Origin: Bacillota bacterium
GTDB lineage: Bacteria; Bacillota; SHA-98; UBA4971
Assembly (NCBI GenBank): GCA_030024085.1
Contig: JASEJE010000006.1
Location: forward strand, 1-64,000
DNA: 64,000 nt
Reading direction: 5' to 3'
Part shown: positions 4,456 to 46,098 of the stretch, piece after piece
How the letters are laid out: each line of letters begins with the position of its first letter
Position numbering within the stretch: position 1 is the first letter of the stretch
Program-made: the position numbers and the translations under genes
The notes under the pieces: generated by a model
Seen by the model: the letters and a program-made list of their open reading frames with translations, nothing else
What the model was told of the DNA's origin: nothing
Database searches by the model: none

Positions 4456-5513
4456 GCTTCACTCCCCCTCACGATCGCCACCAGGATGTCATCGAGGGAC
4501 ACCGGGAGCACCCGGGGCCTGGTTCCTGCGATACGTGCAATCCTTTCAGCAACATCCTCCGCAAACGCGTTCGTGATGCCAGTAAAGGTGACGCCGTCGA
4601 TACTGTACGCGGCAAACACCCTTTCCAGGCCGTCTCTCATCGCCTGCTCCACCCTGGCCCTGGCCTCGGCGATGCCCGCCTCGAGGCCGGCGGGGTCGGA
4701 CGGCGCGCCCGCCTCGCGCCGCACGGGGAGTGGGAACGAGATCCTCTTCCACCTGCCAAGCACGTCGTCTTTCACGTCGGACATCACGATCCGTCCGTCA
4801 TTGATGAACGTGACGTAGTCCGCGACCTTCTCCACGTCCTGGGTGATGTGGGTCGAGAAGAACACACTGCGCCGCTCGTCCTGGATGACCGACATCAGTT
4901 CTGCCAGGACGTCGTGGCGGATGACCGGGTCCAGCCCGCTCGTGGGCTCGTCGAGTATCAGGAGCTCCGGCCTGTGCGAGAGGGCGAGCGCCAGGCCCAG
5001 CTTCACCTTCATGCCCTTGGAGAGGGTCTTGACACGCTTCGACTGATCTATCCCGAATCTTCCGAGGGTTGCCTGGTAGAGCGGCGCGTCCCACGTCGGG
5101 TAGTACTTGCCCACGAACCCGCCAAGCCAGGCCGGGGTCACCTCACCGTAGAAGTGGGGTTCTTCCCCCAGGTAGCCAACGTGGCGCTTGACCTCGGTCT
5201 CGCAGGCCACGTGGTCGAGGCCCAGCACCTTCACGCTACCCGCGGACTTCCTTACCATGTTCATGATGATCTTGATGGTCGTGCTCTTGCCCGCCCCGTT
5301 CGGCCCGATGAACCCCATGATGTAGCCCCTCGGCAGCGTAAAGGACACATCCTTCAGCTGGAACCTCGGGTACCGCTTGCCCACACCTGACAGCATCAGT
5401 GCCGGGTCGCCGCGATCACCGGTGCCTTTCGCCTTTGACCCCGCTGCCGCGCTCGCGCTCGCGCTCGCGCTCGCGGTCGCCGTCGCCGTCGCCGCCATCG
5501 TTGCCATCGCCAT
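4449..5513 (-). CDS. ABC transporter ATP-binding protein
   Basis: ATPase of 354 residues. Walker A is GPNGAGKST (near residue 74), the signature LSKGMKVKLGLALALS, Walker B LLILDEPTSGLD, and the switch His is in STHITQD. About 30 residues at the N terminus are a repetitive Met/Ala/Thr/Ser tract encoded by GCGAGC-type repeats, absent from normal family members, so the real start may be internal or the tract a recent expansion. The ATG overlaps the GntR stop as TAATG, indicating coupling. With the permease at 3751-4455 it forms an exporter controlled by the upstream GntR gene. Confidence 0.9.
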   Translation of the reverse strand: MAMATMAATATATASASASASAAAGSKAKGTGDRGDPALMLSGVGKRYPRFQLKDVSFTLPRGYIMGFIGPNGAGKSTTIKIIMNMVRKSAGSVKVLGLDHVACETEVKRHVGYLGEEPHFYGEVTPAWLGGFVGKYYPTWDAPLYQATLGRFGIDQSKRVKTLSKGMKVKLGLALALSHRPELLILDEPTSGLDPVIRHDVLAELMSVIQDERRSVFFSTHITQDVEKVADYVTFINDGRIVMSDVKDDVLGRWKRISFPLPVRREAGAPSDPAGLEAGIAEARARVEQAMRDGLERVFAAYSIDGVTFTGITNAFAEDVAERIARIAGTRPRVLPVSLDDILVAIVRGSEAC

Positions 5514-15424: not shown

Positions 15425-16444
15425 ATGGCGAAATCTGCTCGAGCGCCACGGAACAGGACAATGAGGCTTACACCTGAGGAAGAAGACTCCCTCAGTCGGC
15501 GGTTGCTTTACCTCGAGAGGCCCGCAACTGTGGCCGATGTTGAGAACCGCACCATATGCCAGGATGCCTTTCAGGCTGTAGAGTTCCTGCCAGACCAGTT
15601 CGTCGATCTTCTATTCTTAGATCCGCCGTATAACCTCAATAAGAGCTTCAACGGAAGAGCGTTTAGGGCAACTCCCGTTACGGACTACCAGAACTGGCTT
15701 GACTCCTGGCTCCCCAAGTTTAGGAGGCTGCTCAAGCCCGCTGCGTCGATATACATCTGTGGTGACTGGCGTTCCTCTGCCGCCATCCATGTAGTTGCTG
15801 CGAAGTACTTTACGGTCCGAAACCGCATCACATGGGAACGCGAGAAAGGCCGAGGCGCAACAGCTAACTGGAAGAATTGCTCTGAAGACATCTGGTTTTG
15901 CACGGTCTCAGAGGATTATACCTTCAACCTGGACGCAGTGAAAACAAGGAGAAGAGTAATTGCACCTTACACCGATGAGAACGGCGACCCTAGGGATTGG
16001 GAACGCGCCGGGGACGGTAACTATCGCCTCACGCATCCATCTAATCTATGGACCGACGTCACGGTACCGTTCTGGTCCATGCCGGAAAACACCGTGCACC
16101 CAACTCAGAAACCAGAGAAGCTGCTCGCAAAGATCATTCTCGCGAGCAGTAACCCTCAGGATTTAGTGCTGGATCCCTTTTTGGGTTCCGGGACAACTTC
16201 TGTTGTGGCGAAGAAGCTGCAACGGAAGTTTGTCGGGATAGAAATCGACAGGTTCTATTGCTGCCTGGCGGAGAAGCGACTCCAGATCGCCTGTACCGAC
16301 AACACGATTCAAGGTTACCAGGATGGTGTCTTTTGGGAGCGCAATAGCTACCTAGAACGGCACCGTCGAAACCGCCGCCTGAGGCTATCCCAGTCCTCAC
16401 TATTTGAGGATGCGGCCCGAACGGGGGTTACATATGAAGAGTAG
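15425..16444 (+). CDS. Type II DNA adenine-N6 methyltransferase (beta class)
   Basis: Methyltransferase of 339 residues with motif IV DPPYNLNKSF (near residue 65) preceding the AdoMet-binding motif DPFLGSGTTS (near residue 245), the beta-class order. The target-recognition region lies between them. The ATG at 15425 follows AAGGGAGGA by a proper gap. It overlaps the downstream endonuclease gene by 11 bp, so the two form a restriction-modification pair; this enzyme should protect the host site. Codon usage is visibly less GC-rich than the flanking housekeeping genes, suggesting transfer. The recognition sequence cannot be read, though the partner's HincII-like look suggests a GTYRAC-like site as a guess. 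Confidence 0.9.
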   Translation: MAKSARAPRNRTMRLTPEEEDSLSRRLLYLERPATVADVENRTICQDAFQAVEFLPDQFVDLLFLDPPYNLNKSFNGRAFRATPVTDYQNWLDSWLPKFRRLLKPAASIYICGDWRSSAAIHVVAAKYFTVRNRITWEREKGRGATANWKNCSEDIWFCTVSEDYTFNLDAVKTRRRVIAPYTDENGDPRDWERAGDGNYRLTHPSNLWTDVTVPFWSMPENTVHPTQKPEKLLAKIILASSNPQDLVLDPFLGSGTTSVVAKKLQRKFVGIEIDRFYCCLAEKRLQIACTDNTIQGYQDGVFWERNSYLERHRRNRRLRLSQSSLFEDAARTGVTYEE

Positions 16445-20376: not shown

Positions 20377-20587
20377 CTAAGTATGGCGCCATAAGTTTGC
20401 GCCATCTTCCCTGACGGCGTCCGGGTTGCCGGTGCTTGCACGACGGGGCGTCGAGAATTTGGCTTGCCCGCGCGCCAAATTCGAACGAGGCGCGCCGCAA
20501 GCGCGCCGTCCCCGGAGGGCAACACCGGCAACCCTAGACAGGACTCACCCGCTGAAGAGTAGCGCGAACTTGTGACGATCTACCTAG
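20377..20587 (+). repeat. CTAAGT palindromic element, complete copy B
   Basis: A 211-bp imperfect palindrome running from CTAAGTATGGCGCCA to CTACCTAG. Core stem GGGTTGCCGGTG (20423-20434) pairs with CACCGGCAACCC (20523-20534). Inside are hairpins GAATTTGGC/GCCAAATTC (20455-20482) and GGCGCGC/GCGCGCC (20489-20507). It fills the gap between oppD and oppF and its right end coincides with the oppD TAG stop. Confidence 0.85.
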
Positions 20588-31414: not shown

Positions 31415-31708
31415 GTTCATGCCCCCCGCCCGGCCCGGACGGGCCTGGACCGGCCTGGATTAGTATGCGCCCGCTTTACAAGGACCATCAGTTTCTTCCT
31501 CATATGCCGCGAGATTCCTTCAGGTCCCGGGAGAAAACGGCACGTTTCGCGCATGAAAGGCCAATTGGGGGCTGAGAGGCGCAACTGGAGGGCTGATAGC
31601 ACTATGTTAGATACGAAACGTCATCCGGTCTGGCGGGCGTGGCGGGCTTCTCTGGCAGGGCGACTCCTGGCCCTGGTGGCCCTTGACCGTGCAGTCCCTG
31701 CAGGACTC

Positions 31709-32162
31709 GTGATGTGCGGAACGGGTAAGGCGGGGAGAGTGATATACGTCAGCGACTGGATTCGACGCGTGACGCAGAGAACGGGTAAGGCTCGGACCCG
31801 TGATGTGCATCACTGGACGGCTCTCAATGGTGACGTGCGGAACGGTTGAGGAGGAACCCGTGATGTACGGCACTGGTCCCGCTTCGACGAGTGACGTATG
31901 GAACGATTCATGGAGAACCCGTGACAGAGGGAACGGGTAAGGCGGCAACGATGATGTACGTCACCGATTGGCTCCCGATGAGTGACGTGCGGAACGGGAA
32001 GAGCCTGACGAGTGACGTAGGTCACGCGTCCCCTGGTACGTGTGACGTCGGGAACGGGTAGGGCCGTGACCAGTGATGCACGTCACTCGATAGCCCTCAA
32101 GGATGACGTGCGGAACGCTTAATGAAGAACCCGTGACGTGCGTCAGCCGTCAGCTCGAGTGA
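31709..32162. repeat. 15-unit helically phased array, period 30/30/31 bp
   Basis: Unit starts: 31709, 31739, 31769, 31800, 31830, 31860, 31891, 31921, 31951, 31982, 32012, 32042, 32073, 32103, 32133. Every unit begins with a variant of GTGACGT or GTGATGT. Type A units continue GCGGAACGGG (8 copies); type B units continue into the palindrome GTGATGTACGTCAC (7 copies). Types alternate except two adjacent A units at 31891 and 31921. A last half-site GTGACGG is at 32159. The array lies between the polA start and palindromic element E. It is not coding, since the extra base every third unit breaks any frame. Confidence 0.9.
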
Positions 32163-32197
32163 CGGCACTCCCGGGCGCTGCATACGTAACAGAGCAA

Positions 32198-32544
32198 CTA
32201 AGTGAGGGTGCGGGAATCTTCCCGACTTTGAGACGGGTTGCCAGTGCTTGCACAAGGGGTGTCGAAATCCGGCTATTCGGCCGACTGGCCCTACTTGCCC
32301 TACGGGCCCGACGCGCCCGTAGGGCAAGACCTTGGCGAAGCGCTCCCCGTCTGGGGCGCCGTCCCCGAGTGCGACACCGGCAACCCGACACTCGCTGGAA
32401 AACGGGGAGGAATCGACGAACAAGGCCGTTGATCCCCCCAGTAGCTGCCAGTTCAGGCGTGCACGGCGACCGGTTTCGGGCGTTCCACCGAGCTGCGCTG
32501 CCATAAACGGGAGAAAATCAACAGTCTCGCGGACCCCCACTTAG
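32198..32544 (-). repeat. CTAAGT palindromic element, variant copy E
   Basis: A 347-bp element with ends CTAAGTGAGGGTGCG and, inverted, CTAAGTGGGGGTCCG. It keeps the core stem GGGTTGCCAGTG/CACCGGCAACCC of copy B and contains a perfect 13-bp-arm hairpin TTGCCCTACGGGC/GCCCGTAGGGCAA (32295-32327). Its right end overlaps the TAA stop of the SLH gene. Confidence 0.8.
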
Positions 32545-38950: not shown

Positions 38951-39163
38951 CTAAGTAGATCGCCACAAATTCACGCCGCTTTTCAGGGCGCGAGCCCTAC
39001 CCAGGATTGCCGGTGTCGCCCTCCGGAGGCCACGCGCTTGCGGCGCGTCTCCTTCGAATCTGGCGCTTAGAACCAGCCAGATTCCAGGCGCCCCGCCCTG
39101 GCAGGCACCGGTAGCCCCAACACTGTCAGGAGAAGTGGCCCAAACTTGTGGCGCCATACTTAG
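38951..39163 (-). repeat. CTAAGT palindromic element, complete copy C
   Basis: A 213-bp copy inverted relative to B, ends CTAAGTAGATCGCCA and CTAAGTATGGCGCCA. Internal hairpins match B's, with paired changes: AATCTGGC/GCCAGATT instead of AATTTGGC/GCCAAATT, and ACGCGC/GCGCGT instead of GGCGCGC/GCGCGCC. The compensatory substitutions support a folded RNA or cruciform. Confidence 0.85.
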
Positions 39164-39454: not shown

Positions 39455-39691
39455 TGTCGACGCCAGGGGCTTCGCTGGCGCACTGTGGTTGCGGGCCAAA
39501 GGTAGTGTGCTTCCAGCGGCCACGACGCATACCGGACGTTCAGGCTAGCACTGCTCCGTCGCATATGCAGTCCCTGGCAATTCTATCGCCCAAGCGGCCG
39601 CCTGGGGCCCTTCGAATACGAATCACAGACGGGTTAACCGCGCGGACGACCGCCCGACTGGAGTGCGGCTGCCTACCTGGCAAAGTAGCAC

Positions 39692-39735
39692 CAAGTATGG
39701 CGCCATAAGTTTTCGCCACTTTTCTTGAGGGTGTG
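39692..39735 (+). repeat. Solo left arm of CTAAGT element (copy D)
   Basis: CAAGTATGGCGCCATAAGTT followed by a match to the next 20 bases of copy B's left arm; no right arm is found nearby. It lies about 75 bp beyond the pheA stop. Confidence 0.65.
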
Positions 39736-45973: not shown

Positions 45974-46098
45974 CTCTGTGAGGGTGAAGAAATGCTTCCG
46001 ACTTTCGGAGGGGCTGCCGGTGACGCTAAGAGAGAGTGCAGCACCGGCAACCCAGCGACTGATGGTGAGTCGGCAAGAACCGACGGACCCTCACTTAG
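45974..46098 (-). repeat. CTAAGT palindromic element, short copy G
   Basis: A 125-bp copy; on the minus strand it starts CTAAGTGAGGGTCCG and keeps the core stem GGGTTGCCGGTG/CACCGGCAGCCCC with a much reduced interior. The start CTAAGTG contains the TAA stop of hsp20. Confidence 0.8.

Follow-up and report, generated by a model that had tools for sequence, protein, structure and literature searches.

The palindromic elements that end on stop codons in this genome are very probably IS630-family MITEs that target CTAG, duplicate its TA and rebuild the stop codons into which they insert, with coding insertions being lost and no function in termination being needed. According to this explanation, an IS630 (Tc1/mariner-like) transposase would insert the MITE into CTAG and duplicate the central TA; in a genome of 64% G+C, the harmless sites would be intergenic CTAGs and TAG stops preceded by a C. 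The first element base after TA, an A or in a minority of cases a G, would then complete a stop codon and leave the gene with its exact protein end, while loss of genic insertions would leave stop-codon copies as about one quarter of the total.

Three stop-fused copies lie in the window, i.e., the whole 64,000-nt stretch analysed here, all on the plus strand and each joined to a minus-strand gene. Copy B (20377-20587) is palindromic, measures 211 bp including the flanking C-TA and TA-G, and carries the duplicated TA at 20378-20379 and 20585-20586; the latter, followed by the first element base G, forms the TAG stop of oppD (20584-20586; AAG AAC TAG GTA on the minus strand). Copy E (32198-32544; 347 bp), which is probably chimeric or nested, has its TA duplicated at 32199-32200 and 32542-32543, and here the first element base A completes the TAA of an SLH-domain gene (32541-32543; AAC CTC TAA GTG on the minus strand). 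The hsp20 stop TAA (46095-46097; ATA CAC TAA GTG on the minus strand) likewise consists of the duplicated TA and the first base of copy G (45974-46098; 125 bp). Pfam matches are HSP20 for hsp20, three SLH domains for the SLH gene, and ABC_tran plus oligo_HPY for oppD. The sequence-only reading had placed the two TAA stops at the ends of copies E and G and the oppD TAG at the right end of copy B, and all three are present there in the sequence. One small correction concerns copy G, where the canonical terminus is found at the right end (CACTTAG) only, the left end being degenerate (CTCTGTG; CTCTGTGAGGG from 45974). The window additionally contains a full B-type copy of 213 bp that is intergenic and unfused to any stop (38951-39163, minus strand) and an end fragment of a B-type copy (39690-39734, plus strand). 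Of note, a distinct intergenic repeat of about 600 bp (31601-32195) directly adjoins copy E; about 30 more copies of it, 76-90% identical and with units like GTGACGTGCGGAACGG, are found in the window's genome.

The elements form a large family. A search of this genome (G000; 3.11 Mb, assembly 95.7% complete) with copy B as a 221-base query gave at least 43 matches, with 40 of 397 first-look candidates scored, and of the five relatives in the genus, four yielded 42-48 matches apiece and one (G005) yielded 5. A profile search over 854 kb of G000 (the window together with portions of contigs C11, C22, C33, C44, and C63) recovered 122 elements; a density of about one every 7 kb extrapolates to roughly 450 copies genome-wide; the core motif was also found in the Bacillota genome UBA6811. 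Most elements are 124-213 bp long, two-ended ones clustering around 126, 193-200, and 209-213 bp, and the copies read repeatedly show the core stem GGGTTGCCGGTG...CACCGGCAACCC. At least three subfamilies can be told apart by their termini (CTAAGTATGGCGCCA with CTAAGTAGATCGCCA; CTAAGTGTGAGTTCAG; CTAAGTGAGGGTGC), the sole common part of which is CTAAGTR. Since CTAAGT is conserved and the bases beyond the C of CTA are random, the element boundary is sharp. Directly after TA, most ends have A as the first element base and a minority have G, on both sides of the palindrome. Elements are also found nested within other copies at the apex GGCTAGCC, again at CTAG (L096, 1400-1500; L099, near 2604). At gathering score, Rfam gave no match for the elements in the window, where it recognised one tRNA only. 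A long multicopy IS, suspected because contigs ended inside elements, was discarded, as those contig ends are the MITEs themselves.

Comparison with sister species reveals the target directly. Empty sites show insertion into CTAG with TA duplicated, i.e., CTAG becomes CTA/AGT...ACT/TAG (slashes mark junctions). At the SLH locus, G004 has no element (...gcagCTAGaggttc) and G002 is filled (...gcagCTA/AGTGAGGGTGC...CACCCCCACT/TAGaggttc); the SLH gene ends on TAG without any element in G001, G003, G004, and G005. At the oppD locus, the empty site of G004 (..CCCTAGTTC.. / ...TTCTCCCTAGTTCTTG...) corresponds to the filled site of G000 (...CTCGACTA/AGTATGG...GATCTACC/TAGTTCTTG...). The hsp20 locus is filled in G000, G002, and G004, and hsp20 ends without an element on CAT TAG in G001 and on CAC TGA in G003 and G005. 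The elements at this one stop codon (window position 46098; L109 and L114) differ among the three species, which suggests either that the codon was hit independently more than once or that a single element has diverged strongly. For a gene of contig C33 fused at 5205-5207, all five relatives stop at the same codon (TGA, TGA, TGA, TAA, and TAG) and none has an element terminus directly after it. A second C33 gene (stop at 15841-15843) carries an element in four species; the two species without one have their stop, TAA or TGA, at this same codon.

Across copies, 73 of 109 elements have the same dinucleotide on the left and on the right, versus 61.7 +- 2.9 after shuffling, and in 95 of 109 the TA lies between C and G. 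The identical pairs include six CA/CA and one TG/TG, and one copy shows an AC duplication (TAC/AGTA...TACT/ACA); the duplicated unit is two bases. Both the 2-bp TA target duplication and the CTAG preference of IS630-family MITEs are thus found. The proposal that the elements enter a CTAG-like target common at stop codons is borne out by these empty sites and duplicated dinucleotides.

How often this places an element on a stop codon was determined in the same 854 kb of G000 and in 400 kb each of G004 and G003, with stops located by a purpose-written codon-model gene caller rather than a standard one (700, 315, and 332 genes, respectively). Among elements of which one or both ends were recognised, 28/110 in G000, 14/61 in G004, and 8/29 in G003 are fused to a stop at the exact terminal triplet, that is 50/200 (25%) in the three species against 0.39% for random placement in non-coding DNA. 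This enrichment of about 65-fold, taken against random placement as the sequence-only reading had proposed, rejects chance as the cause of the fusions. Most of it is due to the choice of CTAG and the loss of coding insertions. Element-free CTAG sites in G000 number 27 at stops, 134 in intergenic DNA, and 151 in coding sequence, with a similar share at stops in the relatives; from the free non-coding sites, and assuming loss of coding insertions, 38.3 fusions are expected among the 200 elements. The slight excess of observed fusions (50 vs 38; P = 0.025) counts against the preferred explanation. That insertions inside genes are lost is inferred from the mere 3 of 200 elements found inside a called ORF; CTAG itself is strongly depleted in coding sequence (0.23 per kb, vs 0.83 per kb in intergenic DNA, in the 854 kb of G000).

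Because the duplicated TA is followed by an A or a G from the element, an interrupted TAG becomes TAA or stays TAG. As read directly from the sequences, C-TAG is converted to C-TA+A or C-TA+G with the element in either orientation and the gene on either strand. Fused stops also include TGA (7/29 in G000), which requires either a CTGG/CTGA target or later mutation. Among unfused ends, the stop triplet has been lost by mutation in 53 of 245, while among genes in frame with a terminus none reads through a decayed end and 47 stop there (P about 1e-5 under equal decay); rebuilt stops are kept by selection. In two cases, at G000 C33:15840-16023 (L151) and G004 C1:310216-310409 (L176), the stops of two convergent genes are fused to the two ends of one element, as if both had once lain within a single CTAG palindrome.

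The ends of the elements also point to the enzyme that may have moved them. IS630 is described (Tenzen and Ohtsubo, 1991; cited in PMC2170065 and PMC6811581) as preferring the TA of 5'-CTAG-3'. Two relics emerged when the whole family was searched with the IS630 profile NF033545: L234 (G005, 1530-2043 or 2044) and L245 (G002, 1440-1830), both with CTAAGT at each end and flanks C-TA...TA-G. They have most of their first 130 bases in common, including the N-terminal LYRLRYVRSLS, and L245 joins this shared start to the C-terminal stretch PQLNPAEKIWWRLK, i.e., it carries an internal deletion. At its far end (CTAAGTCGAGCGCCATAAGT), L234 agrees with the terminus of B (CTAAGTATGGCGCCATAAGT) at 17 of 20 bases. 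Its ORF matches the IS630 transposase with an E value of 4.7e-21 over 110 of 299 positions; the score does not reach the curated cut-off, which is to be expected when a protein is truncated. The ORF matches HTH_32 and HTH_29 too. With L234 and L245, the MITEs have terminal inverted repeats in common with an IS630 element. These sequence likenesses strongly support the view that the MITEs were moved by an IS630 enzyme, as a claim about past mobility only, and the mobiliser would likely be an IS630-family transposase. An intact IS630 copy with CTAAGT ends was found neither in G000 nor in its relatives; G000 gave no match to DDE_3 and, in place of an autonomous transposase, only weak HTH matches to NF033545. 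Where two CTAAGTR ends were paired at a distance of 0.5-4 kb, they belonged to adjacent elements with nothing but ordinary genes in between, and none of the PF13358, PF01797, and PF01609 loci showed matching ends. A MITE need not share a genome with its autonomous transposase, as the partner can be lost.

The sequence-only reading had offered, besides insertion, a use of the elements as 3'-end processing or termination modules, and one could thus imagine domesticated terminators or mRNA-stabilising hairpins kept after stops for the benefit of the upstream gene. The elements do form strong hairpins as RNA (z about -6), and the small stop excess above the CTAG expectation would fit such a role. 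However, if they served in termination or 3' processing, one would expect them to be concentrated between convergent genes and to show T runs, and neither pattern emerges: 169 elements lie in tandem, 33 in divergent, and 17 in convergent gaps, close to the shares of these contexts in non-coding DNA (73, 20, and 7%), with no convergent enrichment, and a hairpin followed by a T-tract, as in intrinsic terminators, is absent from copies B and E, copy G giving one weak match. Moreover, the same genes do without the element in sister species, stem changes in 44 B-type copies are mostly one-sided, and RNAalifold on these copies gave a weak result, their interior aligning badly. The module proposal is therefore not sustained by gap context, terminator matches, or stem decay, and we regard it as very improbable as a general explanation; it is possible that the hairpin acts at the RNA level on some individual genes.

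It is just as improbable that insertion anywhere near 3' ends truncates genes, the register merely reflecting a stop triplet carried by the terminus. The TGA among fused stops would agree with this, as would a second stop: the termini CTAAGTAG and CTAAGTGA carry one in a different frame, at +4, and it terminates four to five genes. Against truncation, element-free species use the same stop codon at five loci (SLH, oppD, hsp20, and the two C33 genes). Palindromic, intergenic, and multicopy as they are, the elements also recall REPIN-type repeats, moved by a RAYT (Y1 HUH) through single-strand insertion without target duplication. This origin is hardly credible given the two-base duplications, the absence of Y1_Tnp (PF01797) from G000, and the presence of the same ends on IS630 relics. 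Within the preferred explanation of CTAG-targeting IS630-family MITEs, it is conceivable, although rather doubtful, that selection has preserved the A/G-first termini as a portable stop codon, with stops hit beyond the CTAG supply, in a stop-seeking, host-sparing strategy. If true, the favourite target, a CTAG stop, would be rebuilt regardless of the orientation of the element and the strand of the gene.

Several known systems resemble the present one. RUP of Streptococcus pneumoniae is an IS630-family MITE linked to IS630-Spn1. IS630 insertion sequences and MITEs such as RUP have in common with the elements described here the TA duplication, the CTAG preference, and short non-autonomous copies with IS630 ends, RUP being likened by description; here, by contrast, one quarter of the copies lie in stops, copies number several hundred, and no intact partner was found. 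TnRErm46 of Rhodococcus equi also targets CTAG, and its target repeat supplies the TAG of some target genes, which are still functional (PMC6794481). The stop codon of target genes is thus re-supplied in both cases, but TnRErm46 is a large resistance transposon that duplicates NCTAGN, whereas the present elements duplicate TA only and supply the third stop base themselves. The BOX elements of S. pneumoniae, which encode the stop of 36 genes with no strong evidence of truncation (PMC3049150), are likewise mobile repeats that supply gene stop codons; they differ in being modular boxA-B-C repeats, and PMC3049150 does not invoke a CTAG target for the stops. To the searches made here the family is new and the principle, CTAG targeting that re-supplies stops, is already known from TnRErm46; the present case is unusually clear, quantified, and genome-scale.

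Repeats adjoining stop codons, as this case warns, need not be terminators. Across transposon families, elements that insert at TA and begin with A or G are predicted to accumulate at TAG stops. For this genome, where the rare CTAG target persists for the most part between genes and at stop codons, the combination of a rare target with a stop-rebuilding end would offer a transposon a route to hundreds of copies with little damage.
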